From Clostridia bacterium (GTDB lineage: Bacteria; Bacillota; Clostridia; Christensenellales; Aristaeellaceae): DNA of 37,301 nt. The stretch covers positions 1-37,301 of the forward strand of contig JAFSKN010000058.1 of NCBI GenBank assembly GCA_017448975.1, given 5' to 3'. Numbering within the stretch: position 1 is the first letter of the stretch; every line of letters starts with the position of its first letter. Made by a program: the position numbers and the translations under genes. The notes beneath the pieces were generated by a model. That model had not been told where the DNA came from and searched no databases. It saw only the letters and a list, made by a program, of their open reading frames with translations. Below are positions 5,613 through 22,314 of this stretch, piece by piece.

Positions 5613-5706
5613 AGATTTGATTAGGTGGGTATTTATTTGCAGAAATGCAGGAATGTTCGGCGTATTTTCGGTTTTCATCGCCATCCAGGAGAGAGGGCAT
5701 ATCCTG

Positions 5707-7998
5707 ATGAAGAATCCTTTCGGGAAACTGCGGGCAAACAAGCTGTCCACAAAGATCATCCTGCTGGTGGAGATCATCGCCATCGTCTCCGGCAGCGTAT
5801 TTTGCGTGGTTTCCATTATCAACAGCAGGCTCGGCATCAAAAAATCCATCCAGCAGCGCATGCTGGACATCGCCAACTGCGCCGCCGGTTCCATCAACGG
5901 CGATATTTTGGGCAGCCTGAAAGCGGAGGACGCGGACACGCCGGAATACCGGCAGATTTATCACACGCTGGAGGTGTTCCGGAACAACACGGAGCTGGAA
6001 TATGTGTATGGCGTCCGGGACGAGGGAAACGGCCGCTTCACCTTTACCGTGGATCCGGATCCCGTTGATCCCGGCGAATTCGGCGAGGAAGTAAAATACA
6101 CCGAAGCGCTCGCGGCGGCCGGCAGGGGCACTGCGGCGCTGGACGAAACGCCCTATACCGACGCCTGGGGCACCTTTTACAGCGCGTACAGCCCGGTGCT
6201 CGATTCTGCCGGCAGGATCGCCGGCATCATTGCCGCCGATTTCTCCTCCCAATGGTTCGAGGCCCAGCTTTCGCAGCGCACCGGCACAACTATTTTAAGT
6301 TCCGTCGCCATCCTGCTTACGACCGTGCTGATCGCGGCGGTGATGTCGCTGATCACGGTGCGCCCCTTCGTTCAGCGCCAGGAGCAGCTTTCCCGGGAGG
6401 TGGAGAAAAAAGCTGCCGAGAATAAGCAGCTCTCCTTGCAGGTCGTCCGTTCCCTGGTGGACGCCATCGACGCCAAGGACGTATATACCAAAAATCACGC
6501 CTCCCGCGTGAGCCAGTATGCCGTCAAGATCGCGGAAACCGTCGGGTGGAAGGAAGACAGGATCAGCGATTTGCGGTATGCCGCCCTGCTGCACGACATC
6601 GGCAAGATCGGCGTGCCCGATTCCATTCTGAGCAATCCCAACCCGCTGTCAGACGTGGAGTATGACATCATCAAATCCCATACCACCATCGGCGGGGACA
6701 TCTTAAAGAACAAAAGCATCATCAAAACAGCCGAGGGCGTGGCCAGAAGCCACCACGAACGCTACGACGGCGCGGGCTACCCCCAGGGGCTGAAGGGCGA
6801 GGAAATATCCGAGGAAGCCCGCATCGTCACCATCGCGGACGCTTTTGATTCCATGAACTCCCACCGCGCCTACAGAAGGGCGTGCGACCCCGCGTACATC
6901 CGGAAGGAACTGACCGAGGGCCGGGGAACGCAGTTCGATCCCCATTTTGTGGACGTGTTCGTCGGGCTGTGGGACAAGGGCCTGCTGGACGATATCATCA
7001 GGCAGGACGCACAGGAAGACACGGGGGGCCTGGAAGCGTCCTCCGCGCTGCTGCAGGAGGTCATGGAGAAATTCGTCACCCAGGGCGTAACGGACGATTA
7101 CGACGCCATTACCGGCGTCATGACCAGGAGCACCGGCGAAGCGGCCATCGTGCAGGCCATGAAAGGCAGCGGATGCTTAGCGTTTATGGATCTGGACAAT
7201 CTGAAAAAAATCAACGATATTTACGGCCATAAGGTCGGGGATCAGGCGCTTCGCTTCGCGGGCGACGTGCTGACGGAAAACGGCCAAAACACCGTTTGCT
7301 GCCGTTTGGGCGGGGATGAATTCCTTTGCTTCATGAAGGGCGTTACCCAGGAAGAAGCGGAAACCGGGATTCAAAAGATCATCAGCGATTTTGAGCAAAA
7401 GAAGAACGCCGAGCCCGAAACCTCCATGGCAACGATTTCCGCCGGCCTGGTGATGTGCACTCCCGCCGATACCTATATGAAGGCCTATAACCGGGCGGAC
7501 CGGGCGCTCTATTATGTGAAGCAGCACGGCAAAAACGGCTATCAGTTCTACACCCCGGATTCCGAGATTTTCCGCAGCGAAACGGTGGACGTGAACCGCA
7601 TCGTCACCGGCATCCGCACCAGCGGCAGCTACAACGGAGCCATGGATGTGGAATACAGGCAATTCGCCACCCTGTACGAATTCATCGAAAATATCAAAAA
7701 ACGGTTCTCCCACCCCTTTATGCTCATCATGATCACCCTTGAAACGGACGCCCACGAACCTCCTCTGCCCGAAGAGCTGGAAAAAGCCATGTATTACATG
7801 GAACAGTCCATTCAGCAAACCATCCGCAACGTGGACGTGCTCACCCGCTACAGCCGCAAGCAGTTCCTGATCATCCTGCTGGGCTCCAACGCGGAAGGCG
7901 TACAGATCGCCGTGGACCGCATTTTCCGGGGCTACTACAAAATGTGCGGCAGCGGCGCGTTCTCCCCGTCCTACGCGGTGGCGGAAGTGGACGCATAA
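5707..7998 (+). CDS. Membrane Cache sensor with HD-GYP and GGDEF domains
   Basis: A 763-residue transmembrane signalling protein. An N-terminal helix (about 17-39) and a second helix (about 200-222) bracket an extracellular Cache-like sensor. A short coiled linker leads to an HD-GYP phosphodiesterase domain with LLHDIGKIG (about 292-300) and HHERYDGAGYP (about 348-358), which typically hydrolyses c-di-GMP. Next is a GGDEF domain with an intact LGGDEF motif (about 535-539). A third domain (about 645-763) looks like a degenerate GGDEF fold, with SRKQF where GGDEF would be. Both synthesis and breakdown of c-di-GMP are therefore possible. ATG 5707 follows AGGAGAG; the longer frame begins at the predicted transcription start. 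Confidence 0.88.
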   Translation: MKNPFGKLRANKLSTKIILLVEIIAIVSGSVFCVVSIINSRLGIKKSIQQRMLDIANCAAGSINGDILGSLKAEDADTPEYRQIYHTLEVFRNNTELEYVYGVRDEGNGRFTFTVDPDPVDPGEFGEEVKYTEALAAAGRGTAALDETPYTDAWGTFYSAYSPVLDSAGRIAGIIAADFSSQWFEAQLSQRTGTTILSSVAILLTTVLIAAVMSLITVRPFVQRQEQLSREVEKKAAENKQLSLQVVRSLVDAIDAKDVYTKNHASRVSQYAVKIAETVGWKEDRISDLRYAALLHDIGKIGVPDSILSNPNPLSDVEYDIIKSHTTIGGDILKNKSIIKTAEGVARSHHERYDGAGYPQGLKGEEISEEARIVTIADAFDSMNSHRAYRRACDPAYIRKELTEGRGTQFDPHFVDVFVGLWDKGLLDDIIRQDAQEDTGGLEASSALLQEVMEKFVTQGVTDDYDAITGVMTRSTGEAAIVQAMKGSGCLAFMDLDNLKKINDIYGHKVGDQALRFAGDVLTENGQNTVCCRLGGDEFLCFMKGVTQEEAETGIQKIISDFEQKKNAEPETSMATISAGLVMCTPADTYMKAYNRADRALYYVKQHGKNGYQFYTPDSEIFRSETVDVNRIVTGIRTSGSYNGAMDVEYRQFATLYEFIENIKKRFSHPFMLIMITLETDAHEPPLPEELEKAMYYMEQSIQQTIRNVDVLTRYSRKQFLIILLGSNAEGVQIAVDRIFRGYYKMCGSGAFSPSYAVAEVDA

Positions 7999-8237
7999 TT
8001 CCCATGCAGCTATCGCTGAATGGGACGAATGAAAGCGGAATCAGGAAGGATATACGGCTTTCAGTCCGGATTTCAAGCATAAGTCCCGCATTGTCACAAG
8101 AACAGTGACGGCCGAGGAATGTGTCAACAAGGAAACCGGAAAAATCATTTCTTTTCGGAAATCACAGCTGAACGGAAGATGACGTATGACTGCTACGGCT
8201 GCTAATTTGGGCTGTACTCCCGCTTTTCTTGGTTTTC
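7999..8237. other. Non-coding region after the HD-GYP gene
   Basis: No gene is seen. Short imperfect hairpins occur (GTCAC..GTGAC, and CCGGAAAA..TTTTCGG near 8136-8159). No U-run terminator follows the stop codon. The sequence merges into the hairpin array that begins at 8238. Confidence 0.4.
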
Positions 8238-8650
8238 GTTACTACTCAGCCTTCGGCTTCGTAGTAACACGCGGGCGGGGATTTCATCCCCCCCGCGAAT
8301 CCGCAGCCTCAATGGTCGCAACTCCCCTTCATGGGGAGATTGCTCCCTTTCGGCTGATCTCACCGCCGATGAAATTCCCGCCGCAGGCGGTCATCGGCGG
8401 TTCGTCCCCCCGCACGGTTTTTCCTCTCGCACCTTCGGTGCTCCCGGGCGGAAAAACCGCAAGGAAGGAAAATTTCATCTGGTCGTCTACGCTCCCGCCT
8501 GAAATTTTCTGGTCGGGGCCTTCCGGCCCGGCCTCCGCTGAAAATATGCCAAAGGGCATATTTTCCGGGCGCTTCGGCCCCTCCCGGCGTACACGCCGCC
8601 GGTGCGGATTTCAGTCAAGGGGTGTTCCCCTTGACAATCCCCCCTTGACG
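8238..8650. repeat. Hairpin array, locus A
   Basis: A dense series of long inverted repeats: 8238-8268 (8-bp arms GTTACTAC/GTAGTAAC), 8415-8459 (10-bp arms enclosing GCACC-ttc-GGTGC), 8468-8509 (10-bp arms), 8540-8565 (11-bp perfect stem, 4-base loop), 8565-8582 (GGGCGCTTCGGCCC), 8585-8598 and 8615-8634 (8-bp stem, loop TGTT). No plausible protein is encoded; a 165-codon open frame here is a by-product of GC-rich palindromes. The segment 8525-8634 is homologous to 19261-19344, with both stems altered in a complementary way. Confidence 0.75.
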
Positions 8651-8712
8651 CCGTTTCTCGGTGGTTCTTCCAGGGGAGGCTGAGTAGGAACTGGTTTTCG
8701 ACCAAATACCGC

Positions 8713-8749
8713 ATGGGCACTTGACAAACAGGTGTCCCATTATTAAAAT
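8713..8749 (+). promoter_or_regulatory. Promoter inside a palindrome, for the 8917 gene
   Basis: TTGACA (8721-8726, consensus -35) and TAAAAT (8744-8749) are 17 bases apart. The -35 box lies in the loop of an inverted repeat, ATGGGCAC (8713-8720) and GTGTCCCAT (8732-8740). A symmetrical repeat over the -35 and spacer is what an operator would look like, though it may simply be a REP-like palindrome. Confidence 0.55.
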
Positions 8750-8763
8750 TTGGGGCAGTTAAA

Positions 8764-8807
8764 GGGACAGCTTGCAGGACACCTGCAAATGTGATGGGGA
8801 CTGTCCC
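8764..8807 (+). repeat. GGGACAG/CTGTCCC hairpin in the leader
   Basis: Outer arms GGGACAG (8764-8770) and CTGTCCC (8801-8807) enclose an inner stem GCAGG/CCTGC. It resembles the GGGAC-rich palindromes often spread by REP-associated elements in Firmicutes (family resemblance only). It would fold in the 5' leader of the 8917 transcript. Confidence 0.45.
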
Positions 8808-8916
8808 AAAAAAGATCATATTGCCGAGTGATACCATTTCTAAAAGATAGAGAGTGGGAATCAAGCAAAGTATCGGGTATCAGCGGTTAGAAGATAATGA
8901 ACAGGAGGAAATCACC

Positions 8917-9363
8917 ATGAAGAAAAACGGAACGATTATCGCGGTCATCATTTCCATCGTCAGCCTGTGCTGCTCGGCGGTGTGCGCCGGGCTGCTGCTG
9001 ACGCATATCAACGCGGCAAACGCGCCGGAAGCGGACACGGGCAAGAGCGTCCAGTACGTGATGTACGTAGGCACCAACGATAAGGACACCTACAAGATGG
9101 AAATGAGCCAGGAGGAAGCGCGGAACATCGTGGATCAAGTATGCCTCAAATACTTTGAGGGCTACACCCTCCAGGACGCTACCGGCGCGTGGACGGACGA
9201 AACAGGCGCTATCACCCATGAATACACCCTGGTTTGTTACTTCGACTTCGCGGACAAGGCCACAGTGTATAAGGCAGCGGATGATGTCATCAAAGCGTTG
9301 AACCAGAACACGGTGCTGATCGAGGAAGACGAGATCACCATGGACTATTACAGCGGAAAATAA
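8917..9363 (+). CDS. Membrane-anchored protein, DUF3574-like domain
   Basis: A 148-residue protein with one N-terminal hydrophobic segment (about residues 7-29) and a short soluble extracytoplasmic domain. The domain has an order resembling DUF3574: a short strand (YVMYVGTNDKD), a helix beginning with a serine-glutamate pair (MSQEEARNIVDQV), then FEGYTLQDATGAWTDETG and a hydrophobic strand. The DUF3574 assignment is by eye and tentative. The biochemical role is unknown. The start follows ACAGGAGG. The C26/HAD fusion begins 41 bases downstream with no terminator between, so the two likely form an operon and may act together outside the membrane. Confidence 0.7.
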   Translation: MKKNGTIIAVIISIVSLCCSAVCAGLLLTHINAANAPEADTGKSVQYVMYVGTNDKDTYKMEMSQEEARNIVDQVCLKYFEGYTLQDATGAWTDETGAITHEYTLVCYFDFADKATVYKAADDVIKALNQNTVLIEEDEITMDYYSGK

Positions 9364-9404
9364 ACCGGAACGTTTACTCAACAAAAAACAGGAGGAGCAG
9401 GAAA

Positions 9405-11342
9405 ATGAAAAAGACGTTTGCGCTGCTGCTGGGATTCGTTCTGCTGGTGAGCGTCTGCTGCGTTTCGCTGGCTGAGGTGCCTCAAAAAACCGTGGTCGGC
9501 ATCGCCTGGCGGGCCGATACGGATTCGGAGTTCTTTACCAACGTGTGCCGCGCCGTGGAAGCGGCGGGCGGCGAATGGGTGATGCTGGATCAGGTGTTCT
9601 CGGCTGATTTAAGCTACGACGCGGAAGGCCGCCTGACAAGCGGCAAAACCGAGATCGGCATGCTGGACGCGGATGCCGCCAAGTATGTGAAATGCAATAC
9701 CTGGCACGGCTCCAACGCGGCGGAAGCCGTGGGGAACGTGAGCATCGTCCTGTTTACCGGCGGCGAGGACATCAGCCCTACTCTATACTATACGCCCGAG
9801 GAATGGCATGGCATCGAAGCGGAAATCGACTATAACGCGGAACGGGACGTTTCGGACTATCTGACCATGGCTTACTGCCTGGACATGGATATTCCCCTCA
9901 TGGGTTTCTGCCGCGGCTCGCAAATGCTCGGCGTCATTTCCGGCGGGGAAGTCATTCAGGACATTCCCACCTGGTTTGAAAATCAGGGCATGGCATATGA
10001 CTACACCCACCGCAACCAGAAGGCCACCCCCGAAAGCTACCGGGATTACGCGCCCCATACCGTGCAGGTGGCGAAGGGGTCCCGGCTTTCTGACATCGTG
10101 GGCACAGATACCCTCACCGGCTGTCCCTCCTGGCATCACCAGGCGGTGAAGAACGTGGACAACACCCGGCTCGCCGTGACCGGTTACACGGAAACGAACG
10201 GCGTTCCCATGATTGAAGCGCTGGAGCGAACCGATAAGACCTTTGCCGTGGGCCTCCAGTTCCACCCCGAAGCCGCTCTGGTGAAAAATTTAGACGGCGC
10301 GGCGAACAAGGACGATTATATGGACTACGAAACGGCTTTGTCCATTTTCCAATACATCGTCGACGAAGCCTATTTAAAGCTGCCCTCCTGGAGCGCGGGC
10401 GCGGAACCCAAAGCCGCGCTCATGGATTATATCGCCGCCATTACGGATGAAACCAGTGAAAGCTACATCCCCGTTGCGGACCGCGTCGCCGTGTTCGATT
10501 TGGACGGCACCCTCATGTGCGAAACCTATCCCCGGTGCTTTGAATACATGGTGTTCGTGGACTTTGCCCTGAACAATCCCGATTACACACCCACAGAGGA
10601 CGTGCTGGCCGTTGCCCGGGAGATCGTGGACACCAAATGGCAGGAAAAGCCCTCGGGCATCAGCACCCGGCAGGCTGCCGCCGCCGCCCTTGCCTACGCG
10701 GGCATGACCCCCGCCGAGCTTGGGGAGTACGTGAAGGGCTTCATGGATTCCGAAGCGGAGGGCTTCACGGGCATGACCCGGGGCGAAGCGTTCTACCTGC
10801 CCATGGTGGAGCTTTTGAACTATCTGCGGGACAATGATTTCACCATCTATATCGTCACCGCCACCGAGCGCAACATCGTCCGCGCCATCGTAAAGGATAC
10901 GCTGGACATTGCCCCCGCTTACGTCATCGGCACGGAATACGGCTGCACCGCCACGGGCCAGGGCGATTCCGCCGATGGGGATTACACCTTCAAAAGCACG
11001 GACAAGGTGGTGTTCGACGGCACCTATTACGGCGAGAACGCCAAAATGTCCAAGGTGGACGCCATCGTGCGGGAGATCGGCCAACAGCCGGTGCTGGCTT
11101 TCGGCAACAGCTCCGGGGACGTGGCCATGTGCGTATATACGGTGACGGACAATCCCTATCCCGCCCTTTCTTACATCGTGCTGGCGGACGACGAAGCGCG
11201 GGAATGGGGCGATTATGAAAGCGCCCAGGCCAAGATCGCGGGCTACAACGCGCAGGGTATCGGCACCATCTCCATGCGGGACGATTTCGCTACCATTTAC
11301 GGCGCTGGCGTGGAAAAGGACGCAAACGCTGCCGCAAAGTGA
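9405..11342 (+). CDS. Exported fusion: C26-type amidotransferase plus HAD phosphatase
   Basis: A 645-residue secreted protein. The signal peptide ends at about SLA-E (residue 24). Residues about 28-330 resemble peptidase C26/PuuD-like class I glutamine amidotransferases, with the nucleophile elbow GFCRGSQMLG and the His-Glu pair in QFHPEA. That family hydrolyses gamma-glutamyl bonds, for example gamma-glutamyl-GABA. Residues about 360-620 are a HAD hydrolase with FDLDGTL (two catalytic aspartates), IVTATERN (motif II Thr) and FGNSSGDVAM (motif IV), most like secreted phosphorylcholine-phosphatase-type HADs. All expected catalytic residues are visible in both halves. AGGAGG precedes the ATG. 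The joint substrate is unknown; the fusion itself is unusual. Confidence 0.85.
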   Translation: MKKTFALLLGFVLLVSVCCVSLAEVPQKTVVGIAWRADTDSEFFTNVCRAVEAAGGEWVMLDQVFSADLSYDAEGRLTSGKTEIGMLDADAAKYVKCNTWHGSNAAEAVGNVSIVLFTGGEDISPTLYYTPEEWHGIEAEIDYNAERDVSDYLTMAYCLDMDIPLMGFCRGSQMLGVISGGEVIQDIPTWFENQGMAYDYTHRNQKATPESYRDYAPHTVQVAKGSRLSDIVGTDTLTGCPSWHHQAVKNVDNTRLAVTGYTETNGVPMIEALERTDKTFAVGLQFHPEAALVKNLDGAANKDDYMDYETALSIFQYIVDEAYLKLPSWSAGAEPKAALMDYIAAITDETSESYIPVADRVAVFDLDGTLMCETYPRCFEYMVFVDFALNNPDYTPTEDVLAVAREIVDTKWQEKPSGISTRQAAAAALAYAGMTPAELGEYVKGFMDSEAEGFTGMTRGEAFYLPMVELLNYLRDNDFTIYIVTATERNIVRAIVKDTLDIAPAYVIGTEYGCTATGQGDSADGDYTFKSTDKVVFDGTYYGENAKMSKVDAIVREIGQQPVLAFGNSSGDVAMCVYTVTDNPYPALSYIVLADDEAREWGDYESAQAKIAGYNAQGIGTISMRDDFATIYGAGVEKDANAAAK

Positions 11343-11444
11343 CAGAAAATTTTCTGAAGAGAAATCAGATTTCGCCGGAACCGTCACCGTATGCATCGTC
11401 GGGACGAAGAGAACGAAAGAGAAACTGAGTTGGGGGTAAGCGGA

Positions 11445-12317
11445 ATGAAAGGTATCATTTTGGCCGGAGGGAAAGGAACGCGGCTGTATCCTTTGACCCA
11501 AGCGGTTTCCAAGCAGTTATTGCCGATTTACGACAAGCCGCTGATATATTATCCGTTATCGATTCTCATGCTCGGCAGCATCCGGGAGGTGCTGATCATC
11601 TCCACACCGGAGGATACGCCGCTGTATGAAAAGCTGTTGGGAGACGGAAGCCAGCTGGGCATGAAGTTTTCTTACAAGGGGCAGGATACACCCCGGGGCC
11701 TGGCGGACGCTTTTATCTTAGGCGAAGAATTCATTGGCGACGACAGCGTATGCCTGATCCTGGGCGATAACGTGTTCTATGGCCAGGACATGACGCGGAT
11801 GCTGCGGAAGGCCATGGAAAACAAAACGGGCGCAACGATCTTCGGCTATCCGGTGAAGGACGCGCGCTCCTTCGGCGTGGTGGAATTTGATAAAAACCAT
11901 AAAGTCATTTCCATCGAAGAAAAGCCGGAAAAACCCAAGAGCAATTACGCCGTACCCGGGCTGTACTTCTACGACAATCGGGTGGTGGAGATTGCCAAGA
12001 ACGTGAAGCCCTCCGCCCGGGGTGAAATTGAAATCACGGCGGTCAATAACGCCTACCTGGAAATGGGCGAGCTGAGCGTGACGCTGCTGGGCCGCGGCAT
12101 GGCCTGGCTGGATACCGGCACGCCCAGCAATATGCTGAAAGCGGCGGAATTTGTGGAAGCGGTGCAGGACCGGCAGGGCTTCTATGTGTCCTGCATCGAG
12201 GAAATTGCCTGGCGGCGCGGCTTCATCACCACGGAACAGCTTGCCGCGCTGGGCAAAGAATTGAAAATGACGGATTACGGTCAATATCTGCTGACGATTG
12301 CGGAGGAAGAGAAATGA
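11445..12317 (+). CDS. rfbA: Glucose-1-phosphate thymidylyltransferase
   Basis: A 290-residue nucleotidyltransferase that makes dTDP-glucose from dTTP and glucose 1-phosphate, the first step of dTDP-L-rhamnose synthesis. The N-terminal signature [16 protein letters not shown], the [16 protein letters not shown] segment, the metal-binding LGDNVFYG and the C-terminal WLDTGTP segment all match RfbA/RmlA. The start at 11445 follows TTGGGGGT; longer frames have no family match. Its last four bases overlap the rfbB start (ATGA), implying translational coupling. It begins 102 bases after the exported C26/HAD gene with no obvious terminator. Confidence 0.95.
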
Positions 12318-13333
12318 AAATTCTTGTTACAGGCGGCGCGGGATTTATCGGCAGCAATTTTGTCTATCTGCTTCTTGAAGAACGGCCGGAATGGAAAATC
12401 ATCTGTGTGGATGCCCTGACGTATGCCGCCAATATTCACACGCTGAATGACGCTTTTAAATCGCCCAATTTTGTTTTTTACAAGGAAGATATCCGGAATC
12501 GGGAGGGCATCAGCGCCATCTTTGAAAAAGAACGCCCGGATGTGGTCGTCAACTTCGCGGCGGAATCGCATGTGGACCGTTCCATTGAGAACCCGGCCAT
12601 CTTCCTGGAGACGAACATCATCGGCACGGCTGTGCTGATGGATGCCTGCCGGAAGTATGGGATCCAGCGGTTCCATCAGGTGGGCACGGACGAGGTATAC
12701 GGCGATCTGCCGCTGGATCGTCCCGACCTGTTCTTCCATGAGGACACGCCCATCCACACCAGCTCCCCATACTCTACGTCCAAGGCGTCCGCCGATCTGC
12801 TGGTGCAGGCCTATCACCGCACGTATGGCTTGCCTGTGACCATCTCCCGCTGTTCCAACAACTACGGGCCTTATCAGTTCCCGGAGAAGCTGATCCCGCT
12901 GATGATTAACAACGCTTCCCAGAACAAACCGCTGCCGGTCTACGGGGAAGGGCTCAATGTCCGTGATTGGCTGTATGTGAAGGATCATTGCTATGGCATC
13001 CTGGCTGTGCTGGAAAAGGGCCGCGTTGGAGAAGTCTATAATCTTGGCGGCCACAATGAAAAGGCGAATATTGAGATCGTAAAGATCATCCTGTCCGAAC
13101 TGGGGAAACCGGAAAGCCTGATCACCTTCGTAACGGATCGGAAGGGACATGATCAGCGCTATGCCATCGACCCCGGCAAAGCCATGGCGGAACTTGGCTG
13201 GGCCCCGACCACGATGTTCAAGGACGGCATCAAGCTGACGATCCAATGGTACAGGGAGCATATGGATTGGATGGCTGAATGTACGTCCGGCGGCTATATG
13301 AAGTATTATGAGGAAATGTACGGGAATCGGTGA
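12314..13333 (+). CDS. rfbB: dTDP-glucose 4,6-dehydratase
   Basis: A 339-residue short-chain dehydrogenase/reductase-type enzyme that converts dTDP-glucose to dTDP-4-keto-6-deoxyglucose using bound NAD+. The Rossmann motif [11 protein letters not shown] is at the N terminus, the catalytic TDEVYG segment near residue 123 and the YSTSKASAD tyrosine-lysine pair near residue 155. [13 protein letters not shown] and [11 protein letters not shown] are standard RfbB segments. The length is normal. It overlaps rfbA by four bases. The remaining rhamnose genes rfbC and rfbD do not follow, so either they are elsewhere or the 4-keto sugar feeds another deoxysugar branch. Confidence 0.95.
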
Positions 13334-13447
13334 GCGTATCCGGGCGCGGAGGACCGTACCGCGGATTTAGCGCTGCGAAACGATATTTTGGATTCGCAGG
13401 TTCCGAGGAATGTGCGGAACTGCTTGCAATAAAGGATCGGAAGTGCC

Positions 13448-14020
13448 ATGAAACCGTTTTTTATCCTCATCACAGCCTTTGAACCTTTCGGGGGCAGTAT
13501 GATCAATACCTCCGCGGAGGTTTTGCGTCTGCTGCCGGATTCCATCGCCGGCCATCCGGTAAGGAAACTTCTTCTTCCCGTGGTATTCGGCAAAGCCGCG
13601 GAAACGGCGCTGCAATGTCCTGCGGATTGTATCTTCCTGCTTGGAGAAGCGGGCGGCAGAAACGCGGTCACACCGGAGAAAAAAGCGAAAAACCTGCGCG
13701 ACGCCAGAATCCCTGATAACGCGGGGAAGCAGCCCCAAAAAGAAACGATCCTTCCAAACGGTCCGGCTGAATACTGTACAGCCCTTCCATTGGAAGAAAT
13801 CGTCGCGGAAATGCGGGATGATCCCATTGAAATATCGGAGGACGCCGGGACTTTCGTTTGTAACGATACGTTCTATCTCGTGGGAACGGGCAGTTCCGTG
13901 CCTGTTGAGTTCATCCACGTGCCCGCTGTGCCCGATCAGGCGGAAAAATACGCGGGGATACTGAAACGCTTCATTGAGCTTGCCATCACCGTTACTGAAC
14001 GCGATTTTCATCGGAAATGA
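13448..14020 (+). CDS. pcp: Pyroglutamyl-peptidase I-like cysteine peptidase
   Basis: A 190-residue cytoplasmic peptidase of family C15, which removes N-terminal pyroglutamate from peptides. The signature ITAFEPFGGS lies at residues 8-17 (family TGFEPFGG), the catalytic-glutamate region is LLGEAGGRN near residue 65, the cysteine is in DAGTFVCNDTFY near residue 138 and the histidine is in EFIHVPAVP near residue 158. The triad is therefore complete. It is slightly shorter and more divergent than typical Pcp (about 200-215 residues). No strong ribosome binding site is visible, only GGATCGGAAG before the ATG. It lies 114 bases after rfbB and has no functional link to it. Confidence 0.85.
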   Translation: MKPFFILITAFEPFGGSMINTSAEVLRLLPDSIAGHPVRKLLLPVVFGKAAETALQCPADCIFLLGEAGGRNAVTPEKKAKNLRDARIPDNAGKQPQKETILPNGPAEYCTALPLEEIVAEMRDDPIEISEDAGTFVCNDTFYLVGTGSSVPVEFIHVPAVPDQAEKYAGILKRFIELAITVTERDFHRK

Positions 14021-14096
14021 GCGTTTGGGATGTATCTGGTTCTAATGGCTTCAAAATCTTTTGCGGGGATCGGCTTCATTTTTGCCTCCAACCGCT

Positions 14097-14768
14097 TTAT
14101 TCACGTATTCTGTCGATCCGCGCGAAAGCCGCCTGACACCAGGAAAACAAAGCGGCAAAAGCAGAATCAAAATCAAATCCGTCCGGCAGCTCCGCCAGCT
14201 CCAAAACCCGGCGGTCCTCCGGCGAAACTGCCTCCTTTAATTCCCGCTTGGCGAGAATAAAGCGGCCGCTTTCCAGATAGTACAGATTCTGCATGAGGAA
14301 ATATACGCTTTTGCAGGTGTCCCGAAACTTTCTGACATTTTTGGCCCTGTCCGCATGAATAAAACGATGGCAGATTTCGTGATACAGATTTCCCAAACTG
14401 AACTTGACGTAATTGATCTCGTCTTCCCGCGTCGCGGAGGGCAGATAATCGGTCAATACGCCGAACAAATCCTTCGTCGTATGGCGCAGCTGGCAGACCT
14501 CCAGGGGATTCCAGCGCTTCATTTCCTCTTTTCCGCAGATAAAGCCGCAGGATTTCTCATAGAAGCCGACCTTTTTCAAGGTCTCCCGGTAGGTATCCAT
14601 ATCCTCCAAGGAAAACCGGTCCAGGATCACCATCACGTCGATATCGCTGTCCTCATGGGCTTCTCCCCGCAGATAGCTGCCCTGCAGCCCGACGTACAGC
14701 AGGCGATCCCCAAAGGACGCCTGACAGCACGAAATCAAATCGCGCAGATAGCTGTTCAGGTCAAACAT
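14097..14768 (-). CDS. Nucleotidyltransferase-domain protein
   Basis: A 223-residue protein whose N-terminal half carries the polymerase-beta-like nucleotidyltransferase signature GSYLRGEAHEDSDIDVMVI (GS...G.....SDxDxxV), the metal- and nucleotide-binding core. The C-terminal half (about 110-223) is helical and resembles the HEPN-like or KNTase-type C-terminal helices of such proteins. Relatives modify antibiotics, tRNA or proteins with nucleotides; the target here is not evident. The start overlaps the end of a 25-codon ORF. It is the last gene of the minus-strand row that contains thpR and the GGDEF genes. Confidence 0.82.
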   Translation of the reverse strand: MFDLNSYLRDLISCCQASFGDRLLYVGLQGSYLRGEAHEDSDIDVMVILDRFSLEDMDTYRETLKKVGFYEKSCGFICGKEEMKRWNPLEVCQLRHTTKDLFGVLTDYLPSATREDEINYVKFSLGNLYHEICHRFIHADRAKNVRKFRDTCKSVYFLMQNLYYLESGRFILAKRELKEAVSPEDRRVLELAELPDGFDFDSAFAALFSWCQAAFARIDRIRE

Positions 14769-14838
14769 GGCCGCTCCCGGAAGATACGGCTTTGATCAGC
14801 CGGTTTTTCGCTTCTGTCCATTCGACGTGATTGTTCAT
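14761..14838 (-). CDS. Possible 25-residue leader or remnant ORF
   Basis: A 25-codon frame (begins MNNHVEWTEAKNRL) with GCAGAAGGA before its ATG. It ends by overlapping the nucleotidyltransferase start in ATGTTTGA. Its size and position fit a coupling leader peptide or the N-terminal stub of a lost protein. There is no family match by eye. Confidence 0.3.
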   Translation of the reverse strand: MNNHVEWTEAKNRLIKAVSSGSGHV

Positions 14839-14880
14839 ATATCCTTCTGCTCCATTCTGCCGGCGAAGTTCTCATTGTTG

Positions 14881-15396
14881 TTATGACCCCTCCTTCTTGC
14901 TGCGGCCAATCACCGTGTATTCCATTCCGTTTTCAAGATGATCGGATCGGTAGAGACATACATCCTTTACGATCATCGTTGCCTGCGGCATTTCGATTTC
15001 TGAAAGCAGCCTATGCTCCGGCACGGCGGGCTTTCGCACCAGGGTGATATGCGGATTGAAGTCTTGTTTATCGAAGGGGATTTCTGCCGCTGACAGCACG
15101 TTCCGGACCTGTCGGGCCAAACCGCTCAGCGCTTCGGAGGCTTCCACACCGGCCCACAGCACCCTGGCTTTGGGGAAGATGCCCAGGTGCGACAGCGTGA
15201 CGGGAAAAGGGGTCTGAACCGACGGAAGAAGCCCCGTAATATCCTCCGGCCACATCCCGATGAACGCCAGCGTCAGATGCAGATTGGAGGGCGGCAGGTA
15301 CCGTCCGGTCACCCCGGCAGTGCGAAGACGGTCTTGCACTGACAGCAGAGCATCCCGAAATGCGGGCGCAGGCTGCAAAGCAACAAAGATTCGCAT
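14881..15396 (-). CDS. thpR: RNA 2',3'-cyclic phosphodiesterase (2H family)
   Basis: A 171-residue member of the 2H phosphoesterase/LigT family, which opens 2',3'-cyclic phosphates to 2'-phosphomonoesters on RNA. It begins with MRIFVAL, typical of ThpR. The two catalytic HxTx motifs are HLTLAF (about 40) and HITLVR (about 115). The length is normal. GAGGGG lies upstream of the ATG. It sits 30 bases after the GGDEF gene on the same strand and is probably co-transcribed. 2H enzymes can also act on other cyclic phosphodiesters, but nothing here shows a cyclic-dinucleotide role. Confidence 0.9.
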   Translation of the reverse strand: MRIFVALQPAPAFRDALLSVQDRLRTAGVTGRYLPPSNLHLTLAFIGMWPEDITGLLPSVQTPFPVTLSHLGIFPKARVLWAGVEASEALSGLARQVRNVLSAAEIPFDKQDFNPHITLVRKPAVPEHRLLSEIEMPQATMIVKDVCLYRSDHLENGMEYTVIGRSKKEGS

Positions 15397-15426
15397 ATCA
15401 GGTCAGCCCCTCAACGGTTCGTTCAA

Positions 15427-16815
15427 TTACCGCGCTCTGGGCGGCGGCTGTTTATCCTTCAATTTTTCCGAATAGAAACAGCAGCCGTCCCGCCCATGAT
15501 CCTTGACGTAATACAGGGCGGTATCCGCCTGGCGGAACATCTCCGCCGGGTCTTCTCCCTCCGGGCAATACGCCACGCCCGCGCTGAGCGTGATCGACGG
15601 AAGGCCGTCTTCTTCACGCTGCAAATCCTCATTGATCTTGGCTATCTTGCGCGTGATCAAATCCTTTGGATTGCCGGTCGTATGCACCATGAAAACGACA
15701 AACTCGTCTCCGCCGATCCTGCACACATAGTCATCGGAACGGAAATTCTTCTTCAGCACAGCGGCAATCTTTTTCAGCACCTGATCTCCCGTCTCGTGGC
15801 CGTACTGATCATTGATCCGCTTAAACTGATCCGCGTCGAAGAGCAGCATGGCCGTGGTGCTCATATCCAGGCTGGTCTTGATCAGATCGAAACCGGCCCG
15901 GTTATATACCCCGGTCAGTTCATCGTGGGAAGCCTTGAAGCTGAGGTTTGCGATGCTCTTTTTGTAGGCGTTATACATCACGTTATAGGTTCCGGCCAGA
16001 TAGCGGAATTCAGAGGCCCCCATGATCGGAATTTTCTGGTCCTTCTTGATGTGGTCCACCGCGCTCAGCACCGGATTGACGCCAAGATGGGTGGTCACCC
16101 ACATCATCGCGATCATTGCCGCGGACTGGATAAAGATGAGCGCCGCCATCCATATCAGATCACGATTTGCTTGGTCCTGGGTCTCCTGCTGAGCGCCGTG
16201 CGTGCCGGATTTCAGCGTCTGAATGCATTCCGCCATGTTGTTTCGTATCTGGGTTTTTTGTTCGGAATACGCTTGATCATGAACCATACGCTGCGCAAGG
16301 AGGATCTTTTCTGCCGGGGGCAGAGCGCTGTCCGCTTCCGTCAGCGTCACATCCTTTAGCGCCTGCGGCATATCGGCGTCGCCCTGGGCGTCCATCATCA
16401 GCCGCATGGCGTAGTACTCGCGATTCATGAGCGACAGGGATTCCGCCATGCCTTCTTTCAGCTTTGCCAATGCGGGCGAATCCGGCATCGCTTCCTCCAT
16501 GACGGAGATCGCGTGTTCACGGCGGCGCGCAGCGTCCGCTTCCGCAAAATAGTTCTCCATGTGCGTCCGGTCGCCCAATACCGTATAGCACCGCGCTTCT
16601 TCGGTAAGATAATCCGAAGCCTGCATCAGCTCCTCCGCCGCTTCTTCCATTTGAATGAAATCATCCGTTGAGTCTTCCATGTTCCTGAAGCTCCGGAACG
16701 TGCGGAAGGCCATAAACAGCAGTATCACAGTAATGACCAGCGATACGATCATCATGATCATGGACGTGGTTTTCAGCGATAAGCCCTTTTCTTTTGTCAC
16801 ATTTTGGGTTTGCAA
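15427..16815 (-). CDS. Membrane sensor diguanylate cyclase (GGDEF)
   Basis: A 462-residue protein with transmembrane helices at about 18-38 and 225-245 bracketing an extracytoplasmic four-helix-type sensor of about 180 residues. A HAMP-like linker (SAVDHIKKDQKIPIMG) and a GGDEF domain follow. The GGDEF motif is intact (about residue 366) and preceded at the usual distance by RSDD, an RxxD inhibitory site, so it is probably an active, feedback-controlled c-di-GMP synthase. TTG at 16815 is my preferred start because GGAGG lies 8 bases upstream; a TTG at 16830 would place that site inside the gene. It follows the REC/EAL remnant by 30 bases. Confidence 0.88.
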   Translation of the reverse strand: MQTQNVTKEKGLSLKTTSMIMMIVSLVITVILLFMAFRTFRSFRNMEDSTDDFIQMEEAAEELMQASDYLTEEARCYTVLGDRTHMENYFAEADAARRREHAISVMEEAMPDSPALAKLKEGMAESLSLMNREYYAMRLMMDAQGDADMPQALKDVTLTEADSALPPAEKILLAQRMVHDQAYSEQKTQIRNNMAECIQTLKSGTHGAQQETQDQANRDLIWMAALIFIQSAAMIAMMWVTTHLGVNPVLSAVDHIKKDQKIPIMGASEFRYLAGTYNVMYNAYKKSIANLSFKASHDELTGVYNRAGFDLIKTSLDMSTTAMLLFDADQFKRINDQYGHETGDQVLKKIAAVLKKNFRSDDYVCRIGGDEFVVFMVHTTGNPKDLITRKIAKINEDLQREEDGLPSITLSAGVAYCPEGEDPAEMFRQADTALYYVKDHGRDGCCFYSEKLKDKQPPPRAR

Positions 16816-16845
16816 TATCTTGACCTCCAAGGGAAATGATGTTCC

Positions 16846-17185
16846 TTACCGGATATTCTTGAGAATCTTTCTCGAAAATTCTTCGGCGGGCAGCGGACGG
16901 GAGAAATAATAGCCCTGTACGATGTCGCATCCCGCGTCCTTCAATGGCCATCAGGTCTTCATCCACCTGCATTTCCGCCAAAACCTCCCGTCCGTTCTTG
17001 ACCGGCATTTCCAGGTCAAGCAGCAGAAGGTCAATTTCATCTTTATGGCCGCGCAGCGCTTCCAGGGCCTCGGCGCCATTCGCCGCGCAAGAAATATCGT
17101 AGTCCTCCCGAAGCAGATCGCCCATGATTTCACGGTTGACCTCCATATCATCGGTGATCAGGATATGCTTGCGGGCGTGGATCAC
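16846..17185 (-). pseudogene. REC/EAL gene remnant with internal deletion
   Basis: The first ~80 codons encode a response-regulator receiver: KHILITDDMEVNREI (acidic pocket), LLLLDLEMPVKNG (phospho-aspartate) and EVLAEMQVDEDLMAI, after which the receiver stops abruptly. About 10 bases later a different frame reads LKDAGCDIVQGYYFSRPLP and ends in TAA at 16846. That is the conserved C-terminal end of an EAL phosphodiesterase domain. The rest of REC and nearly all of EAL, plus any domain between them, are missing. The scar lies at about 16937-16945. The GTG at 17185 has no good ribosome binding site and the frame stays open to about 17330, so the true start is uncertain. Confidence 0.75.
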
Positions 17186-17331
17186 GGGAATGTATTCAGG
17201 CTGCGTATTGCCTTCGGGCTGATTGTTCTTTGATAAGCCGAGCGTTTTCAGAAGCTGCTTCCGCCCGTACGTGATTGCGCAATATCTGGGGCAGATAATC
17301 TGACGGGCTGTGAAATGAAATTGTTTTCCTC

Positions 17332-18861
17332 TCAGCGCGTCGGCGAACTTTCAGCCTCGCGTTTCTTCTTCTCTTCAACTAAATCCTCATAGAATGTGAA
17401 TCCGTTTTTCCCATTGTTCTTGGTTTCATACAGCGCTTGATCGGCGTGCTCAAACAGTTCTTCCGCGTATCTCGCGTTTCGTCCGTGGGCAATGCCGACG
17501 CTTATCGTTACGGGCGGGACGCCTTCTTCCGGTGTGCTGAGGATCGTGTTGATCTTCTTTACTCTGTCTATAATCAGGTTTTTTTGATCTGAATCCGAAT
17601 GGGTCATCATCACCACAAACTCATCCCCGCCGTACCGGCAGACACTGTCTTCTGCCCGAAAGCTCTGCTTGATTGTGGCTGCGATTCTTTGAAGCACCTT
17701 GTCGCCAACTTCATGCCCGTAGGTATCATTGACTGATTTGAAACCATCCCCGTCAATCAGCAGCATGATGGTCTTCCAAAGCTCCGCTTTGCCCAGCAGG
17801 ATGTTATAGCCCGCCCGGTTGTACACCCCCGTCAGGGGATCATGGGTGGCTTTGTACACTTCCTCCCGAAGCGTCATCTGCTCGGAGGTGTTGTCCCTGA
17901 CGCTTAGGAAGGAGCCTGTAATACGTCCTTTTTCATCTACGATATCGTGCTTCTCCACCACAAAGGTCTTTATTTCCCCGTCCATCTGAATCTCGTGCTG
18001 TTTAGATTCTCCGGCTTTAAATTCTCCAAACAGCTTTCTCAGCCGGGTTGTGGCGACTTCGTAATCTTCATCCTCTATCTTGACCAGATCGATACCGGAT
18101 TGATTGGCCCATATGCATTGGTCGAACGCGTCGTAGAAATAGAGCGCCTCCGGCAGGCCCGAAGCGATATTTGACAGCATGCTGTCCAGCAGACGCAACG
18201 GGCGGTATTTCAGGGAGAAGAAATAAACCAGCAGGCCAAACACGCCAAAACCGATCATGGAACGGTCGATGGGGGTTCGAGAGAAAATGTAGAAGGATTC
18301 CCATGCCGTGATCGCAAGCATGGTGAAAAGAATCACATAATACCTTTCCGCGTTGATCTTCGGGGAATTGTATGCCTTCAGGAAGAAAATGATGATCGAA
18401 ACGGCAAGAAGCCCGTAGTCAACGATCCGGTGAAACGTCTGGCCGGTAAGGGGAACAAGGCCAAAATAGGTATATCCGCCAGCTTCCAGCGCCGCTGTTG
18501 AGAAAGCATGCCCCCATTTCATATTGCAAAGCAGCTGGATGGTATCGATTGTCAATAGAATAATTCCAGGTATTTTGTAAATCTTTTTTTCTTTCCCTAT
18601 CCCGCAGTATTGATCCGTAAAATGGATCAGGGCCGCCATAACCACATTCATACCCAGGAAATAGACGTAGTAGCCAATCGTGGAAAGAAACTGGTTGGAA
18701 GAAATGATGATGATGCCGTTTCCAATCATTGGCGGAACAAGCGCGCATAACATATAAGAAACGGCTCTGCCGATCTTCTTCGTTGAGCGAAAAGCTGCTC
18801 TCGCAAATATGCCTAATGCGGCGATTAAGGATATCAAAATACAAAAAAAGACAATTCTCAT
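17332..18861 (-). CDS. 7TM-PAS-GGDEF diguanylate cyclase
   Basis: A 509-residue protein with about seven N-terminal membrane helices (residues 1-215), like the 7TM receptor region found on histidine kinases and cyclases. A PAS-like domain follows (about 225-325, from LDSMLSNIASGLPEALYFYD), then a GGDEF domain. The motif YGGDEF is intact near residue 409 and RAED at the standard upstream position is an RxxD inhibitory site, so c-di-GMP synthesis is expected, with the PAS and 7TM parts as sensors. GGAGATG precedes the ATG. It leads a minus-strand row with the REC/EAL remnant and a second GGDEF gene. Confidence 0.9.
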   Translation of the reverse strand: MRIVFFCILISLIAALGIFARAAFRSTKKIGRAVSYMLCALVPPMIGNGIIIISSNQFLSTIGYYVYFLGMNVVMAALIHFTDQYCGIGKEKKIYKIPGIILLTIDTIQLLCNMKWGHAFSTAALEAGGYTYFGLVPLTGQTFHRIVDYGLLAVSIIIFFLKAYNSPKINAERYYVILFTMLAITAWESFYIFSRTPIDRSMIGFGVFGLLVYFFSLKYRPLRLLDSMLSNIASGLPEALYFYDAFDQCIWANQSGIDLVKIEDEDYEVATTRLRKLFGEFKAGESKQHEIQMDGEIKTFVVEKHDIVDEKGRITGSFLSVRDNTSEQMTLREEVYKATHDPLTGVYNRAGYNILLGKAELWKTIMLLIDGDGFKSVNDTYGHEVGDKVLQRIAATIKQSFRAEDSVCRYGGDEFVVMMTHSDSDQKNLIIDRVKKINTILSTPEEGVPPVTISVGIAHGRNARYAEELFEHADQALYETKNNGKNGFTFYEDLVEEKKKREAESSPTR

Positions 18862-19041
18862 ATTCGCATCTCCATGTAGATCATTTACGGTATAATCATA
18901 TCACATGCCCGGGCAAATTGCCAGACCAAAAAAGCAAAAAAACGCCGAGTTTTCCGGTAATTGAAATAACGTTTCTTTCCTCCCCGCCGCCTGAAAAATT
19001 TTTGCTTTAGGGGCTTGACTTTTTATTCGCAGACTTGTTTA

Positions 19042-19073
19042 TGCAGTATGCATTGCAGAATATTCCATACTGC
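19042..19073. repeat. 8-bp inverted repeat GCAGTATG/CATACTGC
   Basis: Perfect arms GCAGTATG and CATACTGC are separated by 16 bases. It could be an operator or a weak hairpin; no gene starts immediately beside it. Confidence 0.35.
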
Positions 19074-19147
19074 GCCTCCTGGCTGCGGAACCATTCCCTA
19101 TAGAATGCTCGGCTTTCGGTATAGTTTGTCATCAACCTGATTATACC

Positions 19148-19199
19148 AAAAAAACGGAAATTTCCCAAGTACCTTCTCTTGAGAGATTTCTGTTTTTTT
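19148..19199. terminator. Bidirectional terminator-like hairpin
   Basis: The arms AAAAAAAC-g-GAAAT and ATTTC-t-GTTTTTTT pair with one mismatch around a loop of about 24 bases. Each strand therefore shows a stem ending in a U-run. Confidence 0.4.
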
Positions 19200-19231
19200 G
19201 TTGCGGTTTGAAGTGCTATTTTTTCACAGCC

Positions 19232-19344
19232 CCTCGGCGACGTACACGCCTTGGGCTGCCGCCCGGCCTACGCTGAAAACGGTACACTGTACCGTTTTCC
19301 GGGCGCTTCGGCCCCTGCGGATTACAGTCGGGGGATTTCCCCCG
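19232..19344. repeat. Hairpin array, locus B
   Basis: It contains CCTCGGCGACGTACACGCC (19232-19250), whose exact reverse complement is at 28431-28449, an 11-bp perfect stem with a 3-base loop (19275-19299), GGGCGCTTCGGCCC (19301-19314) and a 6-bp stem CGGGGG-attt-CCCCCG (19329-19344). The flanks CCGGGCGCTTCGGCCCCT (19299-19316) and GCGGATT-CAGTC match locus A at 8565-8582 and 8604-8615, while the stem arms differ. Confidence 0.75.
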
Positions 19345-19382
19345 CCCCCCTGCGGCGAATGCGGCTTGGTCTTTTAAATGAA

Positions 19383-19430: not shown

Positions 19431-22314
19431 TTATCCGTGCAGCGCCACCACCAGGATGGCGGTGCCGCCCTGATAACGGGCGGGAGACACCTGGCGAAGA
19501 TAGATATTCACGGGGGCCTTCTTCTTCGGTGGAAACGCCGTAATTGATCCAGCCCTCCGTTTCGCCGCAGCGGATCATCGCGGCAAGGAACTGCCTGGGC
19601 GGATTGTCGTTCAGCACACGAAGCCGCGGCTGCTCATCCGCGTCGGCAGGCAGCGCGCCGAAGCTTTTCAGAATTTGCATGAAACGGGCGTTGCACCGCA
19701 GGCAGCGCGCCGAAGCTTTTCAGAATTTGCATGAAACGGGCGTTGCACCGCAGGCAGCGCGCCGAAGCTTTTCAGAATTTGCATGAAACGGGCGTTGCAC
19801 CGCAGGCAGCTCAAATGCCCCTCCCGCAGCTCCAGCACCCCGGCGGGCACCTCGCTGTCCGCCCATGCCGCGGCCACGTCGCCGCTGTGGGCCAGCGGCT
19901 CGCTCAAATCGATGCGGCCCACGGCCTCGTAGTAGGGGGCGGCCTCCGGGTCCTCAAAGGTAAGGCCCGTTTTGTGCAGGGCGCGGTCCACAATATAATC
20001 GAAGGAATTGGGCCGGTTAAAGAGGTAGCCCTGGATTTTTTCGCAGCCCAAGGATTGCAGGATCTGGAAATGCTCCCAGCTTTCCACGCCCTCGATCAGG
20101 GTGGTGATGCCCATGCGCCGGGCCATATCGATGATATCGGAAATGATGATATAGTTTTTGCCCGAAATAGAAAAATTCTTCATGAACTGCATATCGATTT
20201 TGATCAAATCGAAGTCCAGCTCCTGCAGCAGGTTCAGGGTGGAATACTCGCTGCCGAAATCGTCCATCCACACGTCGAATCCGCTGCTGCGGAACCGCGC
20301 CACCTCCCGCTTGAGCAATTCCTGGTTTTGCATAAAAGCCGATTCTGTGATCTCGATTTTCAGCAGGCTGCGGGAGAAGCCGGATGCGTCCACCCGGTCG
20401 GTGATCTCCTGCACCATATCGCACTTTTCAAAGTCCCGCCGGGACAGGTTCACCGAAATGGGCACGATGGGAACGCCCAATTCCTTCCTGCGCTGAAAGT
20501 CCCGCAGCACTTGGCTCACTACGTTCAGGTTCACCTTGTACATCAGCCCGTTTTCCTCCAGGGTATGGATGAAGCGGGAGGGCATCAGGAAGCCGTACTG
20601 GGGATCGAGCCAACGGGAAAGAGCCTCTTCGTTGCATATATGGCCGGTCACGGTGCGGGCAATGGGCTGATAATACAGCTGCAGCCAGCCCTTTTCGATG
20701 GCTTCGTCCACATGGCTGATGACGTATTGCCGGAAACGCTGCTCCGCATCGATTTCCTGATCGTAGTAGCAGAAGGCGGTTTCGCTGTCGCCGGACAGGG
20801 TCTGCAGGGCGGCGCGGGCCTGAGCCAGAAGGGAGATGACGCTTTCGCCCTCCGCGAACCTGGCGAACCCGGCTTTGCCGATGACAGGAAAACTGGGCTT
20901 GTAGTTCCGCAGGGCGGCGTTGACTTTGTCCAGCGCCTCCTTCACCTCGGCCTCATAGCACAGGATGCCGAACTGCGCGCCGGAGATATGGCAAATATAG
21001 CGGTTGGTGAAATGCCGCTGCAAAAGCCGCGCCGTTTCCGCGATCAGGGCGTCGCCCTGGGCATAGCCGAAAGCGTCGTTAAAGGCGCGCATCTGCACCA
21101 GCTTGAAGCAGCCCACCACCGGGCTGCGGTTCCTGTATATCATGCCGCTGGCGATCAGCGCGTCGGACCGGCTGACAAAATAGCCCATGCCCGGCAGGCC
21201 GGTAAGCTGGTCGATTTCGGAGGCGTTGGCGTGGGTGAGCATGTTGCTTTCCGCAATGGCGGCCCGCAGGTTTGCCTGGCTGTATTCCGTGCTTAAATCG
21301 GCGTTGGCCCCCGATTTTTTGGCCTTGTGGGTGTTGATGTCGGCCAGCTGCACCATTTCCTGGAATTCTTTCGCCGTAGCGGGCGTCCCCACGGCGCAGC
21401 CGAAAGCGCAGGTGAGGGACAGCTTTACGCCGTCCAGGGAAAAATCGTTCAGCGCTTTGCGGCAGCGGGCGATCTTTTCTTTGCAGGCCTCCGGCCCGCC
21501 GTGCACCACGCATAGAAATTCATCGCCGTTGTAATGGTAGGTATCCTCCGCGCCGAAGCAGCTCATGAGGGCGCCGGAAAAAAACCATGATCTTCATGCC
21601 CGTGTCGTGGCCGTAAAAATCATTGTAAAGGATGAAGCGGTCCATATCCGCCAGCAGCACGGTAATCTGCTGCCCCACATAGGCGGTGGCCCTGCTGGCC
21701 AGGGCATACCGGTTCAGGCAGCCCGTGCGCTGCTCATGCGCCAAATGGTATTCGCCCTGCATCAGATGCCGCAGGGATTCCATGCGTATCCGCAGGATCA
21801 CGTTCACCAGGGCCACGGTGGTAAAGTAAAATTCAAAGATGTGCACCGTGTCCGTTCCCCACAGGGATCGATCCTTGAACAAAAAACACAGGGCCAGGAA
21901 CACCGCCACCCACGCGCCGGAAAACAGCGTCAGGCGGCCGGGCTTGTCCATGATGAACACAGGCAGGGCCACCAGGAATAAAAGCACCGTAATGGCCTGC
22001 CGGCTTGGGTCCAGCACCGTGCCCAGCAAGATCGCCATCACCATCACCGGGGTTTCCAAAATATACAGCAGCCTCGTGGCGCGAGGATAATCCAGCGGCA
22101 GCAAAAAGTTTTCGGCCACCAGAAAAAGCAGGAAATACATGACCATAAAAAGGCTGCATACCAGCGCCGGGCCAAAACCGGAGGTGGCGTACTGCGCCAC
22201 GGCGTTCATCACGCTCAGCGGAAGGCCGGCCAAACCCAGCAGATGAATGGCGATGCGGTTTTCCTTATTGATTTCCTCTTTATACCGGATCCATTCCTCG
22301 CCCCGGCTGCTCAA
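19431..22314 (-). pseudogene. Frameshifted GGDEF-GGDEF-EAL protein
   Basis: It starts at TTG 22314 after AAGGA. Domains: about six membrane helices (1-175), a GGDEF domain with a YNGDEF motif, a second degenerate GGDEF domain (SGAQF), then an EAL domain with EEALSRW, ISVNLSRRDF, ITESAF, DDFGSEYS, IKIDMQF, EGVES and QGYLFNRP, consistent with an active c-di-GMP phosphodiesterase. A small C-terminal domain follows. The reading frame is broken by an extra A in the A7 run at 21578-21584, a 52-bp triplication at 19646-19801 and an extra G in the G5 run near 19512-19516. Removing these gives 2778 bp (925 codons plus stop) ending at TAA 19431, right before a terminator. As written, the downstream frame stops at 19668. 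Damage could be real or assembly error. Confidence 0.85.
19646..19810. repeat. Three tandem copies of a 52-bp coding unit
   Basis: Identical 52-bp units occupy 19646-19697, 19698-19749 and 19750-19801, followed by the first nine bases of the unit, GCAGGCAGC (19802-19810). The 9-bp direct repeat around a single ancestral unit is a natural seed for slippage or unequal exchange. The 52-bp length shifts the frame at each added copy. Confidence 0.95.

Follow-up and report, generated by a model that had tools for sequence, protein, structure and literature searches.

A small palindromic DNA cassette with changing, complementary hairpin arms in certain gut and a few unrelated bacteria

Introduction

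Several families of short palindromic repeats have been described in bacterial genomes. Members of the CGTC-tagged REP group carry the tag CGTC, TGTC or CCTC, stems of 8–9 bp that start with A-T pairs, and a CCA tail, as set out in excerpts of PMC3733652. Compensatory changes across the hairpin are reported for REPINs in the accessible text of PMC3116915. Template switching has been described as a source of multi-base compensatory changes (PMC8794818, in excerpt). Covarying arms are usually read as strong evidence for a functional RNA.

Here we describe M, a gene-less DNA cassette of 63–67 bp that occupies many genomic places, with arms that change from copy to copy and stay complementary. It probably represents a new family of an already known sort of small mobile repeat, and its hosts are certain gut bacteria together with a small number of unrelated ones. 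No description resembling M was found in the literature covered, outside which lay subscription papers and preprints.

Results

Two copies of M, termed A and B, lie on the plus strand of the window, by which we mean the whole analysed stretch of 37,301 nucleotides from a Clostridia bacterium (contig JAFSKN010000058.1). Copy A spans 8515–8581 and copy B 19253–19315. Both were delimited from the sequence and scored with a covariance model (A, 68.5 bits; B, 83.7 bits), the scores being partly by construction because A and B are in the model's own alignment. The edges of A were set from repeat copies that lack M and from the information content of 201 copies. M opens at its 5′ end with a small hairpin (H1). 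The outer helix (P1) comes next, then the tag CGCT, the long hairpin (P2) and CGGGCGC. In A these occupy 8516–8529 (H1), 8530–8533 paired with 8576–8579 (P1), 8536–8539 (tag), 8540–8565 (P2, GAAAATATGCC/GGCATATTTTC) and 8566–8572 (CGGGCGC). The corresponding parts of B are H1 at 19253–19264, P1 at 19265–19268 with 19310–19313, the tag at 19271–19274, P2 (GAAAACGGTAC/GTACCGTTTTC) and CGGGCGC, which runs to 19306.

An earlier note on this DNA had described 8525–8634 and 19261–19344 as two copies of a single element, made of two hairpins with different arms between near-identical linkers. Direct reading bore out the linkers and the arms. GCCCGGCCT-N-CGCTGAAAA is exact at 8526–8544 and 19261–19279, the middle 18-mer CCGGGCGCTTCGGCCCCT at 8565–8582 and 19299–19316, and the right linker GCGGATT-N-CAGTC at 8604–8616 and 19317–19329. 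Only one further window site falls within four mismatches of CCGGGCGCTTCGGCCCCT, and it has four. Stem 1 is TATGCC/GGCATA in A (loop AAAG) and CGGTAC/GTACCG in B (loop ACT), and stem 2 is TCAAGGGG/CCCCTTGA in A and CGGGGG/CCCCCG in B; the arms differ yet remain complementary in both. The gapped pattern CGCTGAAAA-N6..30-TTTTCCGGGCGC gave 14 matches in the 3.08 Mb genome, compared with 0 for the reversed control, and the likeness of A and B is therefore not due to chance.

The extent and unity of the described unit required revision. M starts further left, at 8515 and 19253. The part added on the left includes a sequence able to form a hairpin (A, GGGCCTTCCGGCCC; B, GGGCTGCCGCCC) and a possible GGCC/GGCC helix. 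The second hairpin shares its linkers between the two loci but is a separate module, located on the plus strand at 8604–8635 in A (GCGGATT-N-CA plus GTCAAGGGG/CCCCTTGAC) and at 19317–19344 in B. An additional stretch, CCCGGCGTACACGCCGCCGG, lies between M and this module in A only. Elsewhere, several complementary arm types stand behind the GCGGATT linker, with a hairpin at 31 of 552 GCGGATT sites versus 7 of 790 control-word sites. Among 12 left arms, GTCAAGGGG, ATCGAAGGGC, GTCGGGGG and ATGAAGGGGT are repeated types, and some of the single ones look unrelated.

P2 combines GAAAA with six variable pairs in an 11-pair stem. For a consensus structure, 65 copies were picked and 62 diverse ones aligned (L053, L085 and L172 left out). 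RNAalifold, run with no preset structure, returned P1, a short CGCT/GGCG helix and the long hairpin P2, with changes on both sides at 8 of 17 pairs. Linkers are fixed by design in copy sets found with the exact pattern; GAAAA/TTTTC and CGCT/GGCG form part of that pattern, so their lack of variation gives no evidence either way on covariation. H1 lies outside the consensus. Its arms vary too (39 distinct sequences, with 159 of 176 cells Watson–Crick in the best local hairpins), and the arms of P1, P2 and H1 each change together with their partners.

Information content falls to background beyond about 20 bases before CGCT and about 10 after GGGCGC (201 copies), and a T directly after GGGCGC, outside the pattern, is kept in 196 of the 201. 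M has GGGGC...GCCCC-like ends, and the outer units vary by context. Folded as single molecules, L063 and L078 form H1 and P1. For A, B and L037 the fold of lowest energy lacks H1 plus P1, and the left part pairs instead with the right end; this we count against our best explanation.

Complementarity of the arms reached 90.7% Watson–Crick cells, compared with 52.0% (maximum 58.8%) in 1000 shuffles of arms among copies; the shuffled set comprised 72 of 78 distinct inserts, those of 15–16 bases, and included the likely chance match L053. Wobble was rare in P2 (12 G·U and 5 A·C in 545 cells). With three helices pooled, the excess of G·U over A·C was not significant (20 versus 11, p 0.15), and wobble asymmetry was accordingly rejected as a sign of RNA. 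These counts exclude 6 of 214 distinct copies, whose arms were poor, and those for P1/H1 also exclude 17 of 208 without P1; P1 was the better of two registers and H1 the best local hairpin. All these choices raise the paired percentages. Of 255 readings with at most 2 mismatches, 202 had perfect arms, some places entering this total more than once. The 30 distinct perfect stems include 37 pairs that are one base pair apart, and 27 of these 37 differences are transversion-type, with no path through a single G·U step. Such transversion-rich changes, seen in a pairwise rather than tree-based comparison, are not what ordinary RNA compensation predicts.

The earlier note had read the changed arms as selection on structure or as the swapping of whole palindromes, and had proposed a covariance-model search of this genome and its relatives. 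That search returned numerous further copies in which the linkers recur and the arms covary, supporting the upkeep of structure or palindrome. Wholesale swapping is not needed because so many stems are a single base pair apart. Nor are A and B the only copies: the model has 21 matches in their own genome.

M recurs widely among relatives. The exact pattern is present in 14 of 29 genomes of the genus, with a maximum of 44 copies per genome, and model matches occur in 100 of 300 genomes of the family, with up to 15 candidates scored per genome. In a 398-genome sample of the phylum, the exact pattern was absent from every genome other than its own, so within the phylum M may be restricted to its own family, or nearly so. 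A scan of named genomes yielded at least 119 stretches with the exact pattern. At least 79 are labelled Clostridia, Clostridiales or Christensenella, and at least 24, counted from titles, belong to Coriobacteriia (Coriobacteriales, Eggerthellaceae included). Among the named matches listed, there are at least 12 stretches from eight species of Paracoccus (at least five in P. alkenifer DSM 11593) and at least one each from Antarcticimicrobium, Gemmobacter, Lacimicrobium and Desulfovibrio, the last (L053) being a likely chance match. A further 13 stretches are on viral contigs.

The commonest arms differ between genomes, for example TGATCC in G016 and G020, CAGTCC in G021 and TGTGCC in G027. Arrays of M and M-like copies occur at L083:5870–7508 (minus strand), where the array is nested with the repeat CCTCATCCGGC...CACCTTCCCC, and at L085:225–430. 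Seven Paracoccus copies (L063, L114, L116, L107, L054, L091 and L142), each 19–37 bp past a gene in sense, are followed by GGATATTT or GGGATATTT-like sequence of terminator-like character (GGATATTT in L142, GGGTATTTT in L116).

Copy A is embedded in a 454-bp composite repeat on the plus strand (8238–8691) that holds several palindromes and has imperfect ends GTTACTACTCAGCC and GGCTGAGTAGGAAC. Partial copies elsewhere in the same genome, with or without M, show 83–98% identity, and parts of the repeat match many places in the genus. Eight copies (L293–L299 and L310), drawn from this genome and its relatives and chosen for a split match at the M site, run straight through that site without M. 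M is present in the copies A, L005, L007 and L008, and L015 has it in a shortened version; L308 and L309, with part of M only, and L311, a different repeat, were not counted. At a locus in G117, a 103-bp unit with M is missing from G290, where the flanks are 92% and 96% identical, and in G117 the unit recurs at 100% identity 4.6 kb away. G290 may instead have lost the unit. No target-site duplication was visible by eye at the compared sites, that is, in the composite-repeat copies and the G117/G290 locus.

Copies of M sit inside different outer repeats, sometimes within the loop of a longer palindrome. Only certain outer repeats, GGGGGAAACC...GGTTTCCCCC among them, showed loop insertion clearly. 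Insertion into hairpin loops as a general rule was rejected, since 9 of 101 contexts lay above 99% of the null and the overall shift was marginal (p 0.049). M is thus about 65 bp long with sharp edges, has many dispersed copies, is present or absent in matching repeats and loci, and is intergenic; its dispersed, cassette-like nature is well supported.

Relative to flanking genes, 27 copies lie between convergent genes, 24 in reverse and 21 in forward orientation between tandem genes, and 10 between divergent genes. These 82 classified copies are what remained of 145 matches once 58 close to the end of their locus and 5 whose genes lay far off had been removed; orientation was assigned with a home-made gene caller, frames over the element being ignored. 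Paracoccus is an exception, in that 7 of its 8 classified copies stand 19–37 bp behind a gene, in sense, and this placement looks like terminator use.

The tagged strand of M is on the lagging-strand template (leading-strand sense) in 31 of 43 copies (p 0.005). The count is drawn from three complete genomes that share a genus, their origins and termini placed from sampled GC skew, and takes in 43 of 45 matches, the two in G117 having no skew sampled there. After merging neighbours, the proportion was 24 of 35 (p 0.041) within 2 kb and 23 of 34 (p 0.058) within 5 kb. Local skew, taken for one copy per locus with similar flanks removed, was positive around 86 of 148 copies (p 0.058; Wilcoxon p 0.005). 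Its sign was unbiased in the 82 named contigs alone (44 positive, p 0.58), and above 0.03, a threshold picked afterwards, 62 of 95 were positive (p 0.004). The lagging-template bias is weak, and copies from related genomes are not independent.

The statement in the earlier note that both loci lie at 3′ ends of c-di-GMP genes holds loosely. A starts 517 bp after the stop of an HD-GYP/GGDEF gene (5617–7998). The end of B is some 115 bp away from where a GGDEF-EAL gene probably stops, past the terminator-like hairpin of that gene, as judged from sequence, homology and domains. This context looks incidental because copies elsewhere adjoin other genes. G008 and G024 have the two c-di-GMP genes side by side, with 8 bases between the two DNA matches, and the same pair is close in G018 too, with a different spacer. 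In the window, a block of about 11.4 kb (roughly 7999–19375) stands between the two convergent genes, with M-bearing repeats near both of its ends. It may be a real rearrangement at the repeats or a metagenome misjoin. The GGDEF-EAL gene also contains a 52-bp tandem duplication at about 19661–19713, which shifts the frame, so that the open frame is split relative to relatives; the duplication could be an assembly error.

A mover was sought near M. The 5006 stop-to-stop frames of 132 loci were clustered, and inspection of the 25 largest recurrent clusters by eye revealed no linked transposase. Nor did similar inspection of the frames that separate the paired copies at L042 and L064, where an autonomous element might lie. 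The genome of the window has a RAYT-like gene (C64; 73.7 bits for NF047646, cut-off 80), and RAYT homologues occur in 45 of 300 family genomes. M was carried by 0 of 20 RAYT loci fetched from these matches with about 1 kb per side, some cut by contig ends. The palindromes beside these loci (L347–L366) contain GGGACGGTTC in 16 of 20 and close variants in the other 4, with differing outer arms. M is found in 33 of 45 RAYT-positive and 67 of 255 RAYT-negative family genomes (p 4e-9, uncorrected for kinship), both searches having covered the same 300 genomes, as inferred from the genome handles. This association follows genera: g7, g12 and g44 together have 24 M-positive genomes, in none of which a RAYT homologue was found, and g1 has 18, of which 1 has a homologue. 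Within the genus, M occurs in 6 of 10 genomes with PF01797 and 12 of 19 without (p 1.0). A Y1_Tnp/RAYT gene as a linked mover of M was rejected, the 20 RAYT loci lacking M and holding other palindromes, though such a gene could still act in trans.

Discussion

The even overall orientation, scarce G·U pairs, transversion-type changes and clean presence or absence of M speak for mobile DNA rather than for an RNA element. M probably belongs with the REP/MITE elements, as a palindromic DNA cassette that is mobile but non-autonomous. We infer that it moves as a folded single strand and that hairpin templating maintains its arms. An enzyme supplied in trans would copy or move M, recognising the folded strand by the tag CGCT, the hairpin and a CGG at its 3′ side. 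Enzymes of the IS200/IS605 type act on the lagging-strand template, and the putative enzyme would probably act there as well. Arms could stay matched if only well-folded copies were propagated, if template switching copied one arm onto the other, or by both routes. Effects at mRNA ends may occur and would be secondary, except perhaps in Paracoccus. A bolder form of this proposal, which we offer as possible rather than probable, is that M represents a third tagged REP superfamily (CGCT...CGGGCGC) spread across distant phyla. Its folded single strand would be moved by an unlinked enzyme, and its arms would drift freely with arm templating arm, so that complementarity would be inherited as DNA and not selected as RNA.

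M could instead be a structured RNA element, a 3′-UTR signal for processing, stability or termination, kept by selection on the RNA fold. The helices do covary, five copies gave stable RNA folds (z-scores −3.0 to −4.4), M is enriched between convergent and depleted between divergent genes, and the Paracoccus copies follow genes closely in sense. However, copies between tandem genes face either way about equally (21 versus 24), both DNA strands fold about equally, and the EAL gene has a terminator-like hairpin of its own ahead of B. The low wobble and the many neighbouring stems without a G·U path also speak against it. Rfam gave 0 matches at gathering score in the window and, in 14 loci, only tmRNA, T-box and L10 leader, none of them on M itself; names raised at low threshold (psaA, miRNAs) scored well below their own gathering scores and were discarded. 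Self-cleaving ribozymes and integron attC sites, considered as further candidates, were compared through Rfam. Taken together, the missing overall strand preference, scarce G·U and transversion-type changes disfavour an RNA role, and we regard it as unlikely.

Matched arms might also be a by-product of mutation by hairpin template switching, with M spread by recombination and segmental duplication and no dedicated enzyme. This fits the high share of perfect arms, the transversion-type changes, the multi-base changes attributed to template switching (PMC8794818, in excerpt), the tandem arrays at L083 and L085, and the lack of a linked transposase in neighbour frames and RAYT loci. It leaves unexplained the same linkers in distant phyla, the sharp cassette edges across different contexts and the genome-specific commonest arms, and seems to us rather improbable, though a shade less so than an RNA role. 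Least credible is mobilisation of M by a RAYT (REP-associated tyrosine transposase) from some of the same genomes. The co-occurrence of M and RAYT, the REP-like layout of tag and hairpin and the weak lagging-template bias point that way, but the 20 RAYT loci hold other palindromes, no homologue was found where M occurs in g7, g12 and g44 and a single one in g1, and the PF01797 comparison within the genus is flat; we consider it very doubtful.

As a mobile cassette, M would extend the REP-like families by one that has a new tag and occurs in Clostridia, Coriobacteriia and Paracoccus. It is a test case for DNA-level upkeep of palindromes because covariation coincides with signs of mobile DNA, no overall gene-strand preference and little wobble. 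It is also a caution for the discovery of RNA families, and it raises the question of which enzyme moves a tagged hairpin without accompanying RAYT genes.

The idea in the earlier note that the segments might match a known REP/MITE family with similarly variable arms applies in part, given the compensatory changes reported for REPINs (PMC3116915, in excerpt). Like the GTAG REPs and BIMEs, as far as excerpts of PMC3733652 and PMC8266576 describe them, M is a short intergenic palindrome after a four-base tag, in many copies, sometimes with a bulge in the stem; stems differ between families, and copies lie mainly between tandem and convergent genes. M also shares with GTAG REPs dispersed intergenic copies that avoid divergent pairs (10 of 82). 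It differs in its tag, CGCT and not GTAG or GTGG (in A, B and 62 aligned copies, where the pattern fixes it), in its length (63–67 bp versus 20–40 bp for REPs, same excerpts), in its fixed GAAAA stem base and flanking helices, and in its absence from the 20 RAYT loci tested. With CGTC-tagged REPs, on the evidence of the excerpted PMC3733652, M shares stems that vary between and within families, the lack of a recognised dedicated transposase, and a range of several phyla with alphaproteobacterial members. Its CGCT tag, 11-pair stem starting from G-C and CGG at the 3′ side set it apart. Membership of the GTAG and CGTC groups thus fails because the tag differs and, for CGTC, the stem and tail as well (excerpts of PMC3733652, PMC6006769 and PMC8266576).

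M resembles a REPIN, as excerpted in PMC3116915, in being small and mobile and in folding into a hairpin, but it is without two inverted REP units, and the antisense model match in the window spans P2 only. With MITEs, M has in common that gene-less palindromic units spread; no parent IS was found in the frames inspected and no target duplication seen for M, which alone is just under the 70–300 bp given for MITEs (PMC3733652, in excerpt). The GC clusters of yeast mitochondria, in the accessible part of PMC4478555, are likewise gene-less palindromes that spread, and they also merge and shuffle.
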